64,000 nt of DNA from Lachnospiraceae bacterium. GTDB lineage: Bacteria > Bacillota > Clostridia > Lachnospirales > Lachnospiraceae. The stretch covers positions 62,001 to 126,000 of the forward strand of contig JAGANL010000002.1 of the NCBI GenBank assembly GCA_017624235.1. The letters are read 5' to 3'. Numbering within the stretch: position 1 is the first letter of the stretch; each line of letters opens with the position of its first letter. Below the pieces are notes generated by a model. The model made no database searches. It was not told the origin of the DNA and saw only the letters and a program-made list of their open reading frames with translations. Of this stretch, positions 1 to 7,784 are shown piece after piece. The position numbers were made by a program, and so were the translations under genes.

Positions 1-1010
1 TGGTACATGAGAGCGTATCGGAGGAAGAAATTGCCCGGATTATTTCCAGATGGACAGGAATTCCGGTATCCAAGCTGACAGAGAGTGAACGCAATAAGAC
101 TCTGCATCTGGATGAAGAGCTTCATAAGAGAGTCATCGGACAGGATGAAGGTGTAACAAAGGTGACGGAGGCAATCATTCGCTCCAAGGCAGGCATCAAA
201 GACCCGACCAAGCCAATCGGTTCCTTCCTGTTCCTCGGACCTACCGGTGTCGGCAAAACAGAGCTTGCAAAAGCACTGGCCGCAGCACTGTTCGATGATG
301 AAAACAATATGGTGCGTATCGATATGAGTGAGTACATGGAGAAGTATTCCGTGTCCCGCTTAATCGGAGCGCCTCCTGGATATGTAGGCTATGAAGAGGG
401 AGGCCAGCTGACAGAAGCTGTCCGCAGAAAACCCTATTCGGTTGTTCTGTTTGATGAAATTGAGAAGGCCCATCCGGATGTATTCAATGTACTTTTGCAG
501 GTATTGGATGACGGGCGGATTACCGATTCTCAGGGCCGTACGGTAGACTTTAAAAATACCATTCTGATCATGACCTCCAATATCGGCGCAGGCTATCTGC
601 TGGAGGGTATTGATGAATCAGGCCATATCAATGCGGATGCGGAAAAGAATGTTATGGAGGAATTGAGGGCGCATTTCAGACCGGAATTTTTGAATCGGCT
701 GGATGAGACTATTTTGTTCAAGCCGTTAACAAAATCCAACATCGGCGGTATCATTCATTTGATTATTGCAGATTTGAACAGACGTCTGGAAGACCGTGAA
801 ATTGCCATTGAGTTGACGCAGACAGCGGAGGATTTTATTGTAGAACATGCTTATGATCCGGTTTATGGTGCAAGGCCGTTAAAGAGGTATATACAGAAAT
901 ATGTCGAGACACTTTCGGCAAAACTGATTCTGGCAGATGCAGTCGGCCCAAAGGATGTGATTCTGATTGATGTGGCAGACGGAGAGCTTGTAGCCAGGAA
1001 AAGGGTATAA
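1..1010 (+). CDS. clpB: ATP-dependent chaperone ClpB, C-terminal part (5' truncated by window edge)
   Basis: Cytosolic Hsp100 disaggregase that extracts polypeptides from aggregates together with DnaK. The reading frame is open from base 3 and carries the end of the middle domain and the second nucleotide-binding domain: WTGIPVSKL linker, Walker [13 protein letters not shown], Walker [14 protein letters not shown], sensor SNIGA and the C-terminal [10 protein letters not shown] region. No ClpX/ClpP-loop is visible in the part seen, and the end matches ClpB rather than ClpC. Only about 335 of the expected ~860 residues are present because the window begins inside the gene. A strong bidirectional terminator follows. 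Confidence 0.95.
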
Positions 1011-1167: not shown

Positions 1168-1488
1168 CTACATTTTTTTGTAAGCATTTCTCCATTCAAC
1201 CATGGAATCAAGGATCGGCTTAAGGGTTTTACCTAAATCACTTAATGCATATTCTACGCGGGGAGGAACTTCAGGATATACAGTTCGTGTAATGATACCA
1301 TCTTCTTCCATTGATCTGAGACTGTCTGTAAGTACCTTTTGGCTGATGCCTTCTAAATCTTTCTTGAGCTCATTAAAACGCCAAGGCCGCTGTAAAAGAT
1401 TTCTGATAATGAGTAATTTCCATTTACTACCTATAAGAGCAACTGTTGTAGCTACAGGGCATTCTGGTAATTTTTCCCTGGTTAACAT
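1168..1488 (-). CDS. HxlR-family winged-helix transcriptional regulator
   Basis: A 106-residue MarR/HxlR-type DNA-binding protein. The family hallmark is visible: CPV near residue 10, IGSKWKLLI, the recognition region RFNELKKDLEGISQKVL and the wing ending in VEYALSDLGK. The Cys at position 10 sits where redox-sensing family members (YodB/HypR type) keep their sensor Cys, so electrophile or redox sensing is possible but not shown. I start at 1488 because AAGGAG lies 9 nt upstream; the longer start at 1497 abuts the ribosome site. It is divergent from the ferredoxin-macrodomain-sirtuin cluster, with two palindromes in between, so it probably controls that cluster and itself. Confidence 0.9.
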   Translation of the reverse strand: MLTREKLPECPVATTVALIGSKWKLLIIRNLLQRPWRFNELKKDLEGISQKVLTDSLRSMEEDGIITRTVYPEVPPRVEYALSDLGKTLKPILDSMVEWRNAYKKM

Positions 1489-1569
1489 TAGTATCATCTC
1501 CTTTTATTAGATTAAAATCTGTTGTTGCATCAAATTATAATGTAACATTCATGGAGTCGTCAATTAGTT

Positions 1570-1599
1570 ACAAAAAAGTAACCTGGGTTACTTTTTTGT
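1570..1599. promoter_or_regulatory. 30-bp perfect palindrome, candidate HxlR operator 1
   Basis: Arms ACAAAAAAGTAACC and its exact reverse complement are separated by TG. It lies in the divergent region between the HxlR-type gene and the macrodomain/sirtuin cluster. The inner GTAAC/GTTAC half-sites are of the kind seen at HxlR-family operators. It could also fold in RNA, but there is no terminator-like GC content. Confidence 0.65.
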
Positions 1600-1610
1600 G
1601 CCTAAGTAAT

Positions 1611-1630
1611 AAAAAAGTGCGTACTTTTTT
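1611..1630. promoter_or_regulatory. 20-bp palindrome, candidate HxlR operator 2
   Basis: AAAAAAGT and ACTTTTTT flank GCGT. The outer arms are the same as those of the palindrome at 1570-1599, so the two look like a pair of sites for one dimeric regulator. It lies immediately before the truncated ferredoxin reading frame. Confidence 0.55.
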
Positions 1631-1635
1631 TTTAA

Positions 1636-1884
1636 GGTTGGTTTTGCTATTCTAAAGATGCAACAGGGCATAAGCCCACAAAAATTTTTATCATAGGAGA
1701 TGTTAAGATTAAAGAGAAAGGGTATTTTATAACAGAAAGGTGCATCTCCTGTGGTACCTGCAGGAAAAAGTGTCCACAGAGGTGTATAGAGGAAGGCTCG
1801 CCTTTCACAATCAGACAGAAATCTTGTCTTCATTGTGGAAACTGTTATGAAAACTGTCCGGTAAAAGCCATTGAAAGAAGATGA
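1636..1884 (+). pseudogene. 5'-truncated 4Fe-4S ferredoxin-domain gene (C-terminal fragment)
   Basis: The frame after the stop at 1633-1635 stays open to TGA at 1882-1884 and encodes two [4Fe-4S] motifs, CISCGTCRKKCP and CLHCGNCYENCP, preceded by about 35 residues including CYSKDATGHKPTKIF. That preceding stretch resembles the end of pyridoxamine-5'-phosphate-oxidase-like flavoproteins with a C-terminal ferredoxin domain, which is inference. No ATG, GTG or TTG start lies in frame; AGGAG at 1695-1700 leads into an ATG in another frame that stops after ten codons. Most of the N-terminal domain is therefore missing, as if deleted between the operator and the domain end. It ends 4 nt before the macrodomain ATG. 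Confidence 0.6.
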
Positions 1885-1888
1885 AGAA

Positions 1889-2662
1889 ATGAACCAGAAT
1901 GAAAAACGATTGTTTCTGATTAAAAGATTATTAAAAGAACAGCCAAGATACAACAAGATACAGATTCCTGTTGATATTGAAGAACAGAAAACTATGCTCC
2001 GTTCTCTTATGAATATTAGAATGCCTGACACAGTTGATGATGAATTTTTAAATGTTCAGGATGAATATTTAATTCAGGTTAATTCAGAAAAAGGTGTTGT
2101 TACACTTTCGGATATGGAAGAGATACAACCAGATGTATACATCTGGAAGGGGGATATTACAAGGCTTAAGGTTGGAGCAATTGTAAATGCTGCGAATAGC
2201 GGTATGACAGGATGCTATCAGCCGTGTCACAATTGTATTGATAATTGTATTCATACATATGCCGGAATCCAGTTAAGGCTTACATGTGCCAGAATCATGG
2301 AAGAACAGGGGGATGAAGAACCAACCGGTCAGGCAAAGATTACTCCGGCATATAATCTTCCCTGTGATTATGTGATTCATACGGTAGGACCGATTGTGCA
2401 GGGAAAACTGACTAAGGAGCATGAGGAGTTGCTGGCATCCTGCTATCGTTCATGCCTTGAAATTGCGAATGAAAATGGAGTGGAGACCATTGCATTTTGC
2501 TGTATTTCAACAGGGATATTCAGGTTCCCAAATGAAAGAGCAGCAGAGATTGCTGTGAAGACAATGAAAGATTATAAAGAGAAAACAGGCAGTTCTATCA
2601 AGGTGATTTTTAATGTGTTTAAGGATTTGGATGAAGAAATCTATAGGGAAATGTTAAGATAG
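1889..2662 (+). CDS. Zinc-dependent macrodomain protein-ADP-ribose hydrolase
   Basis: Expected to remove mono-ADP-ribose from proteins modified by the partner sirtuin. The 257-residue protein has an N-terminal helical extension, then the macro fold: GDITRLKVGAIVNAANS, the metal-binding cluster GCYQPCHNCIDNCIH with Cys/His ligands, IHTVGPIV, and the late loop CISTGIFRFP. The Cys-x-His-x-Cys cluster is the mark of the Zn-macrodomains linked to SirTM sirtuins (known in Staphylococcus and Streptococcus). I chose ATG 1889; the TTG at 1871 has no ribosome site. The sirtuin gene follows after 12 nt, so the pair is co-transcribed. Codon use is more AT-rich than in clpB or feoB. Confidence 0.9.
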   Translation: MNQNEKRLFLIKRLLKEQPRYNKIQIPVDIEEQKTMLRSLMNIRMPDTVDDEFLNVQDEYLIQVNSEKGVVTLSDMEEIQPDVYIWKGDITRLKVGAIVNAANSGMTGCYQPCHNCIDNCIHTYAGIQLRLTCARIMEEQGDEEPTGQAKITPAYNLPCDYVIHTVGPIVQGKLTKEHEELLASCYRSCLEIANENGVETIAFCCISTGIFRFPNERAAEIAVKTMKDYKEKTGSSIKVIFNVFKDLDEEIYREMLR

Positions 2663-2674
2663 AAGGTGATGAGT

Positions 2675-3628
2675 GTGAAATTGAGAAAGTTTCCAAATCA
2701 GAAAATAACATTGGAATCTTTTCTTTGCGGGACACCTGCAAGAGATTATATTTATCAGGACACCGATTATGATAAGCAGATAGGAAATGCTGCCAAAATG
2801 ATACACAATGCAGATTATGTGCTGATTGGCGCGGGTGCCGGAATGAGTACGGCTGCCGGAGCACAGTATGGTGGGAAATTCTTTGAAGAAAACTTTGGAG
2901 AGTTTCAGAAGAAATATGGCAAGGGGCCGTATATGCAGGATATGTATTATGCGGGCTTTTATCCCTTTCCTGATGAAGAAAGCTATTGGGGATACTGGTC
3001 GAAACAGGCTTTGCTTGGCGGAATAAATCTTGATGTAACTCCATTGCATAGATTGCTTCTTAATGCATTATCAGATAAGAAGATATTTGTATTAAGCACC
3101 AATGCAGATGCCCAGTTTGTAAAAGCAGGGCTGCCGGGTGAAAAGATTTTCTGTACGCAGGGAGATTATTTTCATATTCAATGTGGCAGAGGCTGCCATG
3201 ATAAAATATATGATGCAGTTGACTTGTTTTATCAGATGGATCAGGCTAGAATTGACTGCAGGATTCCATCATTTATGGTGCCAAGATGTCCAGTCTGCGG
3301 TGGAACAATGGACATGAATCTTCGTAAGGATAATTACTTTGTCCAGAATGCTGGTTGGTATGAGTCAGAAGAAAGGTTCTCTGATTATCTGTCTGAAGCG
3401 ATAGATAAAAAGCTGGTTCTTCTGGAACTGGGGGTAGGATTTAATACACCGACAATTATCCGGTTTCCATTTGAAAAACTTGTAAGAGAGCATGATAATA
3501 TAAGTTTGATAAGATTGAATCTTGAACAGGCAATCGTACCGGAAAGTTTTGGGAAGAGAGCAGTAGGTATCAATGCGGATATGGCAGAGAGCATCAAAGA
3601 TATTGTGGAGGAAGTGAAACGTAAGTGA
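2675..3628 (+). CDS. SirTM-class sirtuin, protein ADP-ribosyltransferase
   Basis: Class M sirtuins transfer ADP-ribose from NAD+ to proteins instead of deacetylating them. Seen here: the Rossmann NAD motif IGAGAGMSTAAGAQYGG, STNADAQF at the usual TQNID position, and TQGDY (Gln codon 3158-3160) where deacetylases have the catalytic His of the HG motif; then a zinc site CGRGC plus CPVCGG. The Gln for His change and the macrodomain partner identify the class. The best ribosome match, AGAAGGTGAT, overlaps GTG 2666 and ATG 2669 and is 8 nt from GTG 2675, which I take as the start (317 residues). The lipoyl carrier GcvH-L and ligase LplA2 that accompany SirTM in Staphylococcus are not here, so the substrate is open. 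Confidence 0.88.
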   Translation: MKLRKFPNQKITLESFLCGTPARDYIYQDTDYDKQIGNAAKMIHNADYVLIGAGAGMSTAAGAQYGGKFFEENFGEFQKKYGKGPYMQDMYYAGFYPFPDEESYWGYWSKQALLGGINLDVTPLHRLLLNALSDKKIFVLSTNADAQFVKAGLPGEKIFCTQGDYFHIQCGRGCHDKIYDAVDLFYQMDQARIDCRIPSFMVPRCPVCGGTMDMNLRKDNYFVQNAGWYESEERFSDYLSEAIDKKLVLLELGVGFNTPTIIRFPFEKLVREHDNISLIRLNLEQAIVPESFGKRAVGINADMAESIKDIVEEVKRK

Positions 3629-3901
3629 TTATAGGGATGAAGTTAAGGCTATCAACGTTTTGCTTAAAAAAGATAATGAGGACAGGGAAAACTTGGGATG
3701 CGGCGAGAAGGTATCTTTAAAGAGTTTGTATCTTTTGTTAATAATCCTGATGGCACACCCCGTTATGAGAATACTGTGCAGTATGCTATTAAAAAAAGGA
3801 ATGGCATAGGTAGTAGCTTCGGAATTTGTCCCGTTTTCAAAGTAACAAACAGGAAAATAGAGGGAACACGACATACAGGTGTCGTGTTTGATTTGCTATG
3901 A
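3629..3901 (+). pseudogene. Frame-broken remnant of an unrecognised gene downstream of the sirtuin
   Basis: No single frame spans this 370-nt gap, but two frames look protein-like in succession. The first, from 3624, reads SDYRDEVKAINVLLKK followed by an acidic stretch. The second, from about 3698, reads GIFKEFVSFVNNPDGTPRYE and continues to a TGA at 3899-3901 (67 residues from ATG 3698, with no ribosome site). The switch lies near 3700, consistent with one frameshift in a roughly 90-residue gene. I do not recognise the family. The rest of the gap (3902-3998) holds the leader of the next gene. Confidence 0.35.
3865..3888 (+). terminator. Weak hairpin after the sirtuin module
   Basis: AACACGACA and TGTCGTGTT form a 9-bp stem with a 6-nt loop, followed by TGATTTG rather than a clean T run. 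It may end the macrodomain-sirtuin transcript, with low certainty. Confidence 0.4.
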
Positions 3902-3998
3902 TACAAGAAGTAAGGGTGCACAACATCCGGTGGACGTCAGTTCTGCGGAAACCGGAGGGGCATCTGTATCATGTAAGGTAATGGAAGGAGAGCATATT

Positions 3999-4586
3999 AT
4001 GCCAAGACCGCGAAACAAAGAAGATCTGCTGAAAGCGGCAGAAGAAAATTATGAAAAACTGAATCAGTTGATTGATTCACTCAGCGAGACTGAGATGAAT
4101 ATACTATTTGATTTCAGTGCAGATGAGAAAAAAACGGAAGCTCATTGGAAAAGGGATAAAAATGTACGGGATGTGCTTGTACATCTGTATGAATGGCATC
4201 AGCTGATGATTCATTTTGTAGACGAGAACACCAATGGAAATCAGGTACAGTTTTTGCCGAAAATCTATACCTGGCGAACAATTGCACCTATGAATCAGAT
4301 GTTTTGGAAAAAGCATCAGGAGACAGGCTTTGAGGAAGCCAGAGAACTGCTTGCAGGCTCTCATGCAGAGGTTTTGAAAAGGATCCGTCACTTTTCAAAC
4401 GAAGAGTTGTTTTTAACGAAGGCATTTCCGGCTGTGGGAGGTTCGACGTTGGGTTCTTATTTTGTGAGCAGTACTTCCAGTCATTATGATTGGGCAATCA
4501 AGAAGATCAAAGCACATCGGAAGAATTGTAGGAATGACGGAGCAACGGTGATCTGGAAAACATTGGCGGCAGCGGAAAATATGTAA
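3999..4586 (+). CDS. ClbS/DfsB family four-helix-bundle protein
   Basis: This 195-residue protein matches the ClbS/DfsB (DUF1706) family: start MPRPRNKEDLL, the DKNVRDVLVHLYEWHQL helix, FLPKIYTWRTIAPMNQMFWKKH and the end GSTLGSYFVSSTSSHYDWA are characteristic blocks. ClbS of colibactin producers hydrolyses the colibactin cyclopropane and protects the host; most members in gut Clostridia have no assigned substrate. The ATG at 3999 is 8 nt after GGAAGGAGA; longer in-frame starts lack a site. No polyketide or NRPS genes are in the window, so a role in protection from toxins made by neighbours is only inference. Confidence 0.88.
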   Translation: MPRPRNKEDLLKAAEENYEKLNQLIDSLSETEMNILFDFSADEKKTEAHWKRDKNVRDVLVHLYEWHQLMIHFVDENTNGNQVQFLPKIYTWRTIAPMNQMFWKKHQETGFEEARELLAGSHAEVLKRIRHFSNEELFLTKAFPAVGGSTLGSYFVSSTSSHYDWAIKKIKAHRKNCRNDGATVIWKTLAAAENM

Positions 4587-4777: not shown

Positions 4778-5350
4778 ATGAATATCAAATTTCAGGGTAC
4801 AGGGAGCCTGCTTCAGGGAAGCGAAGGTTTGGGATTAAAAAGTGTGAAAGAGAGGAAAAAACGGCAGGAAAAGTGCGAGAGTCAGATAGCCTTCTATGAA
4901 AATCAGATTGATAATCTGAAAAATATGGAATGCGACAGCTTGGAGGAGATTGCAAGAAAGCTGGATATGTTTCACGCTTATGAGGATCAGATCACTGCAG
5001 TAAAAGCAGCCTATAATCAGGAGCAGATGATGCACACTTTGGATGAAGCAAGAGAAAAGGGCGAGAAGATTGCAGAGAAGGCTGAGGAGCTGGATCCAAA
5101 GACAGCAGAGGAAAGAAAGGAAGAGCTTGTAGAAGAAGCACTTGGAACCGAAGAAAACGAAGGCATTTTGGAGGAGGTTCTGGAAGAGACCGAAGAGATC
5201 ATCGAAAAAGCGGCTGAAAATCTGGAGGAGACGACAGAAGATGTAACTGAAGCAGCGTTAGAGGAAGCCGACAAAATGGCAGAAGCGGCTGAAGCATCGA
5301 AAGAGCAGTGGAAGAAACAGATGGATGCGCACATCGATATAAAGGTATAG
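4778..5350 (+). CDS. Glu-rich coiled-coil protein of unknown function
   Basis: A 190-residue soluble protein I do not recognise. Residues 20-90 look like a charged coiled coil (KERKKRQEKCESQ, LDMFHAYEDQITAVKAAYNQ), and 90-175 is extremely acidic with repeated EE and AEE/EEA patterns. There is no signal peptide or membrane segment. A good ribosome site, AAAGGGTGAT, precedes ATG 4778 and a terminator follows, so it is a single-gene unit. The 190-nt upstream region contains a GCCGATAA at 4708-4715 that resembles a sigma-28 -10 element but without a properly spaced -35. Short helical N-terminal blocks resemble those in motility or cytoskeletal accessory proteins, which is not enough for a function. 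Confidence 0.7.
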   Translation: MNIKFQGTGSLLQGSEGLGLKSVKERKKRQEKCESQIAFYENQIDNLKNMECDSLEEIARKLDMFHAYEDQITAVKAAYNQEQMMHTLDEAREKGEKIAEKAEELDPKTAEERKEELVEEALGTEENEGILEEVLEETEEIIEKAAENLEETTEDVTEAALEEADKMAEAAEASKEQWKKQMDAHIDIKV

Positions 5351-5446: not shown

Positions 5447-5476
5447 TTGACAGCATAATCCATCTGGTACTATAAT
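5447..5476 (+). promoter_or_regulatory. Promoter of feoAB
   Basis: TTGACA (5447-5452) and TATAAT (5471-5476) are consensus sigma-A hexamers spaced by 18 bp, 46 nt before feoA. I see no convincing Fur box around them. Confidence 0.8.
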
Positions 5477-5521
5477 TCAAATGAAAAAGTTGAAAAATAT
5501 GAAAAAAAGGAAGCGGTATCG

Positions 5522-5788
5522 ATGACATTATATGATGGACAAAAGGATGGACAGTATACGGTAAACGGCCTTTATCTGGAAGAGGGAATTACCAGACGTC
5601 TGCAGGCGCTTGGCTTAAATGACGGAACGACAGTGAAGGTGTTGAACCGCAGGAAGAAGGGTGCGATGATTATACAGGTGCGCGGCACAAGACTGGCACT
5701 TGGAAAGCATATTGCTGCCGGTATTGAAGTTGTAAGCGGTTCGAAAGAGGAGGCAGGGAAAGAAGGCAGAAGCTATGACGCAAATTAA
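5522..5788 (+). CDS. feoA: Ferrous iron transport accessory protein FeoA
   Basis: A small SH3-like cytoplasmic protein (88 residues) needed for FeoB-driven Fe2+ uptake. The family pattern is clear: GLYLEEGITRRLQALGLNDGTTVKV followed by the strands GAMIIQVRGTRLALGKHIAAGIEV (given in part; the last strand ends near residue 75). An acidic tail follows. AAAGGAAG precedes the ATG. The stop lies inside the feoB start region (14-nt overlap), so feoA and feoB are translationally coupled and driven by the promoter at 5447. Confidence 0.93.
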   Translation: MTLYDGQKDGQYTVNGLYLEEGITRRLQALGLNDGTTVKVLNRRKKGAMIIQVRGTRLALGKHIAAGIEVVSGSKEEAGKEGRSYDAN

Positions 5789-7784
5789 TGGAAAAGGGCC
5801 GATTCATGTGGCATTTGTCGGGAATCCGAACTGTGGGAAAACAACGTTATTTAATGCAGTGACCGGCTCCAAATTAAAGGTGGCCAACTGGCCGGGCGTT
5901 ACCGTGGAAAAAAAGGAAGGACATGCAGAATACGAGGGTGAACAGCTAATCTGTATCGATACTCCCGGAATCTATTCCCTGACCTGTTATACGATTGAGG
6001 AAAAGGTGACCAGGCAGTGTGTCATGGACGATGAGATTGATGTCATTGTCAATGTGGTGGATGCGTCCAGTATGGAGAGGAACCTCTATCTGACGCTGCA
6101 GCTTTTAGAGCTGGGGAAGCCTATGGTATTGGCCTTGAATATGATGGATATTGTGCAGGAGAGAGGCATGGAGATCGACCAGCACAGACTGCCGGAAATG
6201 CTGGGAGATATTGCGGTCATTCCGGTGTCGGCAGCAAAGCGAAGCGGTATTACGACGCTTTTGCATGCTGTGGTGCATCATTACAAGGAAGGGCCTAAGG
6301 GAGACATCCTGCATTACAGCGAAGAAATCGAAAATAAGATTGCCAAGCTGGAGGTTATGATGCAGGCCCACTATCCGAAGCACTCCTCGGTGCGCTGGCA
6401 TGCGATAAAGCTTTTGGAGAATGATGAAGAGGTGCGCAAGGAGCATCCCATCGAGATTATCAATGTAGCAGAGCGAAGCTATGAAAAGGAAATTATTAAA
6501 CGTAAGTATGAATACATAGAGCAGATAGTAGGAGAGGTACTGTTCCATAAGGAGAAAAAAGCAGCCTCTACAGACCGTGTCGACAGGCTCTTAACGCATC
6601 CGGTACTGGGTATGCCGATGTTTCTGCTGATTATGGGACTGGTCTTTTTCCTGACCTTTACAGTAGGGGATGCCTTAAAGGGCATATTTGAAGCAGCCCT
6701 GTCCGTTTTTTCCGATGCCGTCCAGACAGGACTTACGGCAATTGGGGTGGCAGAGTGGTTAAAGTCTCTTATTGTAGACGGAATCATCGCCGGAGTAGGC
6801 GGGATATTGACCTTTATTCCGAATATTTTTATCCTGTTTCTGGCGTTGGCTGTTTTAGAGGATTCCGGCTACATGTCCCGAGTAGCCTATGTGATGGATT
6901 CACTGATGGGCAGGGTAGGATTATCGGGAAAAGCATTTTTACCGATGATTCTGGGCTTTGGCTGTACCGTGCCGGCTATTATGGCAACCAGAGCTTTGGA
7001 AACGGAGCATGACAGGAGAAAGACCATGCTGGTGACACCCTTTATGTCCTGTTCGGCCAGACTGCCGATCTATGTACTCTTTTCGGAAATGTTTTTCCCG
7101 GATTGTGCCGGACTTGTGGCATTTTCCATGTATGTCATCGGCATGGTCATGGCAATTTTGGTAGCTCTCGTGATCAATCGTATGGAAAAGGGGAAGGTCA
7201 ATGATTCTCTTCTGATTGAACTGCCCGAGTATAAGAGGCCGAATGGCAGAACCATCCGTATCTATGTGTGGAATAAGCTGAAGGATTATCTGACGAAGGC
7301 TGGAACGACGATTTTCATCGCTTCCATCATCATCTGGTTTGTATTAAACTTTGGCTGGAACGGCAGGGTAGTGAGTCCGGCGGACAGCTTCGGTGCCATG
7401 ATAGGGCATGTACTGGCGCCTCTTTTAGTACCGGCGGGACTTGGCATGTGGCAGATTGTCGTTGCCCTGATTTCCGGTATTTCGGCAAAAGAGGTGGTGG
7501 TATCCAGCTTTGCGGTACTGTTTGGAGTATCCAATGCAAATTCGGCAGCAGGAATGCACACCATCGTGGAGAATATTCATGCAATCAATCCGGATTTCGG
7601 GCCGTTAAATGCCTATGCACTGATGGTATTCTGCCTGCTGTATGTACCGTGTGCGGCAACCATTGCAACCATCAGGAAGGAAAGCGGTTCCTGGAAATTC
7701 ACCGGAGGAATGGCAGTCTTTCAGATCATTTTTGCATGGCTGATGTCGGTTTTGGTCTATCAGGTCGGACATCTTTTCCTGTAA
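5775..7784 (+). CDS. feoB: Ferrous iron transporter FeoB
   Basis: Membrane GTPase that imports Fe2+. The N-terminal G domain has G1 GNPNCGKTT at residues 16-24, the G2 threonine near GVTVEKKEG, G3 DTPGIYSL and G4 NMMD; a helical GDI domain spans about 170-265; then the membrane part with two Gate motifs (ILTFIPNIFILFLALAVLED and the second around GISAKEVVVSS). CysxGly near GFGCTVPAIMATR is a conserved Gate segment. At 669 residues it is of normal length for the Clostridia type without a C-terminal FeoC fusion. Start ATG 5775 overlaps feoA. In an anaerobe this is the main iron entry and it lies just ahead of an iron-rich hydrogenase gene. Confidence 0.96.
   Translation: MTQINGKGPIHVAFVGNPNCGKTTLFNAVTGSKLKVANWPGVTVEKKEGHAEYEGEQLICIDTPGIYSLTCYTIEEKVTRQCVMDDEIDVIVNVVDASSMERNLYLTLQLLELGKPMVLALNMMDIVQERGMEIDQHRLPEMLGDIAVIPVSAAKRSGITTLLHAVVHHYKEGPKGDILHYSEEIENKIAKLEVMMQAHYPKHSSVRWHAIKLLENDEEVRKEHPIEIINVAERSYEKEIIKRKYEYIEQIVGEVLFHKEKKAASTDRVDRLLTHPVLGMPMFLLIMGLVFFLTFTVGDALKGIFEAALSVFSDAVQTGLTAIGVAEWLKSLIVDGIIAGVGGILTFIPNIFILFLALAVLEDSGYMSRVAYVMDSLMGRVGLSGKAFLPMILGFGCTVPAIMATRALETEHDRRKTMLVTPFMSCSARLPIYVLFSEMFFPDCAGLVAFSMYVIGMVMAILVALVINRMEKGKVNDSLLIELPEYKRPNGRTIRIYVWNKLKDYLTKAGTTIFIASIIIWFVLNFGWNGRVVSPADSFGAMIGHVLAPLLVPAGLGMWQIVVALISGISAKEVVVSSFAVLFGVSNANSAAGMHTIVENIHAINPDFGPLNAYALMVFCLLYVPCAATIATIRKESGSWKFTGGMAVFQIIFAWLMSVLVYQVGHLFL

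Follow-up and report, generated by a model that had tools for sequence, protein, structure and literature searches.

What would a class M sirtuin (SirTM) paired with a Zn-dependent macrodomain (Zn-macro) modify in a cell where no lipoyl carrier and no lipoyl ligase are found? According to the available text of a 2024 JBC paper, no SirTM target other than GcvH-L is known, and the targets of the other SirTM/Zn-Macro systems are stated to be unknown (PMC11490716). The question is raised by a locus of a Lachnospiraceae bacterium (assembly GCA_017624235.1, contig JAGANL010000002.1, positions 62,001 to 126,000), and this whole analysed stretch of 64,000 nucleotides is called the window hereafter, while loci and genomes used for comparison bear L and G numbers. 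The host genome is 80% complete, a scope that holds for all negative results reported from it below. We think it likely that the window contains a complete SirTM/Zn-macro pair, very probably active, which was put by a deletion behind the HxlR-controlled promoter of a redox-stress cassette. Such a pair would most likely be a working, HxlR-controlled writer and eraser on a non-lipoylated target. Gene identities, key residues, cassette architecture, a deletion, lipoyl genes that were not found, linkage statistics and low dN/dS values were obtained here, and they are what this reading draws on.

Judged by sequence comparison, the locus is a class M sirtuin together with a Zn-macrodomain, in agreement with an earlier sequence-only reading of this DNA. 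The two genes lie on the same strand with a 3-base gap between them. The sirtuin has SpySirTM as its best solved relative (5a3a, E 1.3e-40) and carries, as had been pointed out, a Gln in TQGDY where sirtuins have their catalytic His. Asn118, Gln137 and Arg192 of SpySirTM are described as required for transfer in the available text of PMC4518038, and their equivalents are kept in the aligned TNAD, TQGDY and NLR, the Arg192 equivalent being assigned by alignment; in addition, the motif GVGx[NT]TP is present as GVGFNTP, and the four zinc cysteines lie in QCGRGC and PRCPVC. The neighbouring protein matches the solved structures 8rsi (E 1.4e-75), 5kiv and 8rsl (both about 2e-73) as well as NCBIfam PRK04143 (364.7 bits, cut-off 272). 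The Cys/His cluster noticed earlier in this protein is found as C-x4-H-x-C (C109-H114-C116), besides NAAN (100-103) and D-x3-H (D118-H122), all three of them Zn-macro motifs according to the accessible part of PMC11490716, and residues 1-256 align end to end with 8rsi, which by sequence includes the N-terminal extension, a three-helix bundle.

The history of the locus can be read from what precedes the pair. A frame at 1681-1884 matches Fer4 with two stretches and contains no ATG, GTG or TTG from the upstream stop at 1633 to its end; as it stands, it is therefore not a normal gene. An intact homologue of 203 aa lies directly before the Zn-macro gene in L005 and L013, and in L005 it combines, according to Pfam, an N-terminal PNPOx_N domain (FMN-binding split barrel) with a C-terminal 2[4Fe-4S] Fer4 domain. 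Residues 141-203 of this PNPOx-ferredoxin are retained in the window, 86% identical to L005 (tblastn), and by this alignment the "ferredoxin fragment" is the tail, the last third, of a PNPOx-[4Fe-4S] fusion gene. Comparison with related Lachnospiraceae, which had been proposed as a check, revealed the full ancestral order in L005 and L087 (Frisingicoccus caecimuris): a divergent HxlR gene, acgA for an ACGX-repeat peptide, acgM for a radical SAM/SPASM protein, a nitroreductase gene, PNPOx-ferredoxin, Zn-macro and SirTM. Window 1498-1684 aligns with L005 2582-2766 (84% DNA identity), just ahead of the L005 acgA start at 2793, and window 1696-1898 aligns with L005 5031-5233 (87%, blastn). Since the left alignment ends at L005 2766 and the right one resumes at 5031, a deletion of about 2.3 kb is indicated, which removed acgA, acgM, the nitroreductase gene and the FMN half while keeping the leader and its palindrome. 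In the alignment to L005, acgA and acgM are not at the window locus, where only the remnant is left, and TIGR04340, the acgM family, has no match in the host genome at E<=1e-60. The guess of the sequence-only reading that a redox protein had been deleted is thus borne out by the intact fusion of about 203 aa before the Zn-macro gene in L005 and L013, but it was incomplete, genes for the ACGX peptide, a radical SAM protein and a nitroreductase having been lost too. Its idea that HxlR and ferredoxin take the place of the lipoyl genes fails: synteny with relatives makes them the two ends of a different ancestral cassette and rules them out as functional replacements. An out-of-frame stretch before the ferredoxin was considered as an N-terminal PNPOx remnant and rejected, the same stretch sitting in the acgA leader of L087 and L005; dN/dS of the ferredoxin remnant is 0.10-0.19 over 60-63 codons, too little to decide on selection.

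The divergent HxlR gene, with the conserved putative operator and the leader, is retained in the window. Its product bears an ECPV cysteine at the N-terminus, and its best NCBIfam matches are redox_TF_RrpB and RrpA, both below cut-off. HxlR-type regulators include thiol and electrophile sensors. Of 40 stretches upstream of cassette-associated HxlR genes, 20 contain the element AAGTNCGNACTT, for which base shuffles give an expectation of 0.005, and 32 contain GTGCGTACTT, these loci being partly chosen for cassette genes so that the values are shares and not frequencies. We infer the regulation, the activity and the substrate of the pair as follows. HxlR, from what its family suggests, would sense electrophile or oxidative stress via its N-terminal cysteine, whereupon repression would be relieved; SirTM would then transfer ADP-ribose from NAD+ onto a side chain of the target, and Zn-macro would remove it, both chemistries being those of homologues. 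In complete cassettes, the nearest candidate targets would be AcgA, a peptide rich in Cys and Asp/Glu, and the flavin/Fe-S protein PNPOx-ferredoxin. In the window strain, from whose locus these candidates have been lost, the pair would act on a target elsewhere or be in early decay.

Could that target still be a lipoylated carrier, like those of Staphylococcus and Streptococcus, whose genes lie elsewhere? The best-studied SirTMs do modify such a carrier, as the available text of PMC4518038 describes, and a genome of this completeness could miss the genes. The sequence-only reading had seen neither lipoyl carrier nor ligase at the locus and had proposed a search for gcvH-L and lplA2 elsewhere in the genome, and none came to light at either place: neither GCV_H (PF01597) nor the LplA-B_cat model has a match in the host genome, whereas in controls from an Aerococcus extended operon PF01597 recovers a real GcvH-L at 65.6 bits and LplA-B_cat a real LplA2 at 171.5 bits. 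The ligase search consisted of this model, with no LplA2 protein query made; the same Aerococcus GcvH-L, used as a protein query, also gave no match, an empty answer without control that shows little. A GcvH under another name was discarded as well, the sole over-cut-off Biotin_lipoyl protein of the host genome having the biotin motif AMKM. As for the LLM and OYE neighbours of known operons, neither is among the six scanned open reading frames (ORFs) adjoining the pair, and no family search of the genome was made for them. When 24 genomes, namely the 23 with the best SirTM matches (its own included) and the same-genus G274, were scanned with LplA-B_cat, the domain was present in 5 and not found in 19. 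No LplA/LipB catalytic-domain match was obtained in 18 of the 23, 17 of these 18 being at least 93% complete, and most of the nearest SirTMs come from cells without a detected lipoyl ligase. In the genomes of the family, SirTM was counted at at least 150 places (the window's own included) in at least 142 genomes, with matches listed down to E about 7e-49. Among the matches listed, no SirTM lies within 20 kb of any of 62 GcvH places, and the two co-occur at chance level (GcvH in 23/142 genomes with SirTM versus 37/255 others; odds ratio 1.1, p 0.66). These GcvH counts comprise the 62 PF01597 places, in 60 genomes, whose E value is about 1e-28 or better, 177 genomes having any match at E<=1e-3; the weaker rows were excluded as probable biotin carriers and, one being a fragment of a counted gene and all others at most 27 bits, none of them reaches the 65 bits of GcvH-L. 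Finally, the macrodomain segment presumed to contact GcvH-L has a net charge of -1, against +1 to +3 in Spy, Sau and Aerococcus, a crude comparison in which the contact segment is assumed and the residue numbering unverified. Taken together, a lipoylated carrier is very improbable here and the SirTM target in the window's lineage is probably a non-lipoylated protein; the suggestion that the substrate may differ in this organism is well supported, above all by the 18 of 23 genomes without the ligase domain. That lipoyl partners are missing is in itself no novelty, stand-alone SirTM/Zn-Macro pairs with Lachnospiraceae among their carriers being already present in the available text of Rack et al. 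2015 (PMC4518038).

Where lipoylation is set aside, the genes that accompany SirTM elsewhere become informative. The radical SAM protein of L005 (G289:C4, same contig) scores 582 bits against TIGR04340 (cut-off 400), and AcgM, as defined by this family, is found in 54 of 397 family genomes (50 over cut-off) and in none of 14 control genomes. At the 56 AcgM places, SirTM lies within 6 kb in 33 cases, PNPOx-ferredoxin in 28 and both in 21. A listed SirTM is present in 44/54 AcgM genomes versus 102/343 others (odds ratio 10.4, Fisher p 5e-13), the count including four SirTMs that tblastn picked up in fetched loci; likewise, PNPOx-ferredoxin occurs in 74/142 genomes with a listed SirTM versus 21/255 (odds ratio 12, p 5e-22), and it lies within 5 kb of 48 of the 150 listed SirTM places, 47 times on the same strand. 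In a class-wide sample, AcgM is present in 18 of 371 genomes at 19 places, three of which are distant (about 37% identity, below cut-off) and have none of the searched cassette genes; the remaining 16 all show an ACGX peptide (by pattern), 12 have Zn-macro and SirTM and 10 PNPOx-ferredoxin, those 12 spanning four families other than the window's own. Within 2.5 kb of the SirTM ORF at 118 fetched family loci, the neighbours are Zn-macro (88), PNPOx-ferredoxin (37), HxlR (33), radical SAM (21), Rrf2 (20), nitroreductase (19), a second PNPOx (13), an NmrA-like protein (11) and an ABC-transporter-like protein (11, labelled by inspection), with each neighbour family checked on one representative. 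The recurrent neighbours thus seem to be mostly redox enzymes and redox-type regulators. In a SirTM tree of 150 of 152 rows (two rows that offered no usable frame of 230 aa or more were left out), built from loci partly picked for cassette genes so that its shares are not frequencies, the window falls in a starred clade of 15 rows that mixes ACGX, PNPOx-ferredoxin and other contexts; the ACGX label changes at least 10 times on starred branches, and the ACGX-SirTM link has therefore been repeatedly gained or lost. The plasmid of Roseburia sp. 831b is annotated with acgA, acgM, nitroreductase, 4Fe-4S protein, ADP-ribose hydrolase and Sir2, and since it carries the whole set, the cassette is also plasmid-borne. 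On this 243-kb plasmid the complete cassette (L268, 2539-6735) is followed by a DUF1848 gene, and such a gene also directly follows SirTM in L003 (Pfam) and, by resemblance, in L012. As the model TIGR04340 and the acg names attest, the ACGX system is known to NCBI curators; no paper on it or on its SirTM link was found in a search that excluded most subscription journals and all bioRxiv preprints, and we regard the ACGX-SirTM link as new.

One explanation of this linkage is that AcgA is the ancestral substrate: SirTM would ADP-ribosylate Asp/Glu or Cys residues of the radical-SAM-matured peptide and Zn-macro would reverse it, the Cys-rich repeat peptide filling the role of the lipoyl dithiol carrier. 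The linkage recurs in five families, the window's own among them, the AcgA repeats (e.g. ACGSACGAGDKPEEKP in L162) pair Cys with adjoining acidic residues, and Zn-macros act on Glu/Asp-linked ADP-ribose, cleavage of the Cys-linked form being cited too in the available text of PMC11490716. On the other hand, AcgM is near only 33 of 154 SirTM places, and most SirTM places not being near AcgM, AcgA cannot be a universal target; moreover, the window, L004 and L006 keep the full-length pair without AcgA. AcgA as ancestral substrate is therefore, in our estimation, unlikely, and so, slightly more speculatively, is its generalisation, namely that in Clostridia the ACGX system is switched by reversible ADP-ribosylation through SirTM/Zn-macro, with AcgA as a redox carrier replacing the lipoyl dithiol of GcvH-L. 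The guess of the sequence-only reading, a deleted redox protein, leads to PNPOx-ferredoxin, with its flavin and two [4Fe-4S] clusters, as the target, whose electron transfer would be gated by ADP-ribosylation. Besides Zn-macro, it is the commonest same-strand neighbour within 2.5 kb (the 37 of 118 loci above), usually upstream, and accompanies SirTM without AcgM in 29 of 150 tree rows, where contig ends may hide some AcgM genes. Yet L004, L006, L009 and L016/L018, all with a complete Zn-macro, have a shortened or frameshifted gene or none that could be found, and in L004 and L006 SirTM and Zn-macro are both full length although no intact copy is left; besides, 57 of 106 PNPOx-ferredoxin places are not near a listed SirTM, 5 of 18 such fetched loci holding a weaker SirTM. 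This candidate appears distinctly improbable.

The proposal of a working, HxlR-controlled pair must also face the state of the locus in close relatives, where the cassette core is broken in differing ways: PNPOx-ferredoxin shows an internal loss in L004 and is missing from L006, L009 has lost acgA and parts of the following genes, and in L016/L018 HxlR adjoins a frameshifted PNPOx-ferredoxin, the leader and operator being gone. Several points weigh against our proposal. In L009, L016/L018, L020 and L022, SirTM is interrupted by a stop or a frameshift or has an internal deletion, beside a complete Zn-macro; leader and operator are lost in L016, and the lineage may be losing the function of the pair. 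The window, L004 and L006 have kept the pair but not the cassette, and a pair that outlives its cassette argues against AcgA or PNPOx-ferredoxin as the only target. Neither SirTM nor PNPOx-ferredoxin is near 16 of the 56 AcgM places, the small share of SirTM places near AcgM counts in the same direction, the co-occurrence tests ignore phylogeny and their SirTM counts hold among the matches listed, and the host genome is not complete. The broken SirTM genes and the variously broken cassette core suit a rival in which the window shows a decaying remnant whose core is gone, the pair being targetless and heading for loss; decay of the pair does seem to follow cassette loss in some lines. Against this, each of the two window genes has its full length, and pairwise dN/dS versus relatives is low (0.08-0.18 for SirTM, 0.10-0.13 for Zn-macro), although such pairwise values may reflect the time preceding the deletion; the promoter region and operator are kept; and four of the five broken-SirTM loci are metagenome assemblies, where frameshifts can be errors, whereas L009 comes from the named strain Faecalicatena contorta ET52. 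We hold decay to be fairly unlikely and retain the HxlR-controlled pair as the preferred reading. In L022 (6001-6443), SirTM lacks about 170 internal codons and adjoins a complete Zn-macro. That the eraser outlives the writer as a rule was rejected: the Zn-macro ORF of L010 is shortened, and 30 of 150 SirTM rows have no Zn-macro match within 3.5 kb, some of them at contig ends. L007 was not counted as a further cassette loss, its remnant lying 137 bases from a contig end.

Compared with known systems, the window resembles the stand-alone SirTM/Zn-Macro operon in that a class M sirtuin and a Zn-macrodomain lie side by side with neither GcvH-L nor LplA2, but the available texts of PMC4518038 and PMC11490716 do not mention acgA/acgM, nitroreductase or PNPOx-ferredoxin neighbours, and the term "ferredoxin" is not in the main text of PMC11490716. 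With the extended operon of S. aureus and S. pyogenes, which includes GcvH-L, LplA2, LLM and OYE, it shares a Zn-macro gene directly before SirTM, and both that operon and the ancestral cassette have flavin-dependent redox neighbours, though of different families; unlike the extended operon, the window has a divergent HxlR gene and no lipoyl carrier or ligase. A canonical extended operon was seen in L266 (1-6719), a 592-kb, plasmid-annotated replicon of Aerococcus tenax, with OYE-type, LLM, GcvH-L, Zn-macro, SirTM and LplA2 genes; its macrodomain has Gln at the expected His of D-x3-H. The closest likeness is to the ACGX system (acgA/acgM, TIGR04340), in the divergent HxlR, leader and operator, PNPOx-ferredoxin tail, Zn-macro and SirTM, from which the window differs by its deleted acgA, acgM, nitroreductase gene and FMN half. 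The fungal Mfs1 macrodomain-sirtuin fusion unites the same two domains that are encoded by two separate genes in the window. In L013 (1534-3252), Zn-macro and SirTM form a single 572-aa frame which resembles the Mfs1 fusion, possibly through an assembly error.

Table 1. Features of the SirTM/Zn-macro locus and its flanks, in window coordinates.
Feature	Position	Strand	Basis or remark
clpC-like gene, 3' part, left flank	162..1010	+	ORF; gene start lies before the window
HxlR-family regulator, divergent	1168..1497	-	PF01638, E 1.2e-31
Promoter/leader of the former acgA operon	1498..1684	+	187-base alignment (84%) with L005:2582-2766
Palindrome AAAGTGCGTACTTT, putative HxlR operator	1614..1627	.	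Motif recurrence upstream of cassette HxlR genes
Deletion junction, 11 bases matching neither side	1685..1695	.	blastn versus L005
2[4Fe-4S] ferredoxin remnant of the PNPOx-ferredoxin fusion	1693..1884	+	tblastn; Fer4 (Pfam stretch given as 1681-1884)
Zn-dependent macrodomain, predicted protein-ADP-ribose hydrolase	1889..2662	+	Structure-sequence, Pfam and NCBIfam matches; motifs
SirTM, class M sirtuin	2666..3628	+	GTG start, ATG at 2669 possible; best solved relative 5a3a
Terminator-like hairpin downstream of SirTM	3864..3889	+	Pattern match only
DUF1706 protein, right flank, outside the cassette	3999..4586	+	PF08020, E 1.1e-50 (ORF given as 3879-4586)

The surroundings of the locus (Table 1) are informative about its arrival. 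The AT-rich island noticed in the sequence-only reading is real, G+C being 38.4% over 1168-3628 versus 45.7% for the whole window, with only 0.5% of equal-length sliding stretches lower, and 30% in the leader region 1498-1692. The clpC-like flank has a syntenic homologue in G274 (same genus, 88% complete), with 92% protein identity and an 876-aa frame; the DNA alignment covers window 3-1002 at 82% identity, similarity ending there, and window 4970-5206 and 5467-6200 (the latter feoAB-like by inspection) are syntenic as well. At the equivalent site G274 has a different gene (a dehydrogenase by inspection) and no SirTM locus, its SirTM match being a weak one elsewhere in the genome (E 8e-13). 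Because the G274 flanks are syntenic and the gap holds another gene, the SirTM locus would fit an acquired AT-rich insert at a variable site. Phage origin was dismissed, the two phage-collection matches being weak and one of them lying on an unverified contig filed as Staphylococcus phage; nor was anti-phage defence retained, there being no PADLOC match for the pair. The hairpin downstream of SirTM is terminator-like on both strands, and by this pattern the pair may end its own transcript. The ORF at 3698-3901 has no match in the Pfam and NCBIfam scans. A SirTM-like paralogue of 260 aa (L002:1270-2052, G000:C25; 25% identity) is encoded about 63 kb to the left of the SirTM gene in the window. 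It retains the zinc cysteines but neither the catalytic Asn and Gln nor the greater part of GVGxNTP, is possibly a pseudo-enzyme and adjoins a CheV-like gene (labelled by inspection).

The linkage of the pair with acgA/acgM in five families and the near-complete genomes without a detected lipoyl ligase separate SirTM from lipoylation and name two testable target proteins. If the AcgA proposal were true, AcgA would be turned off and on by ADP-ribosylation of its acidic or Cys residues, and a radical-SAM-processed peptide under reversible ADP-ribosylation would be the first SirTM target outside lipoylation. The uncharacterised ACGX system, for its part, gains a possible regulatory partner.

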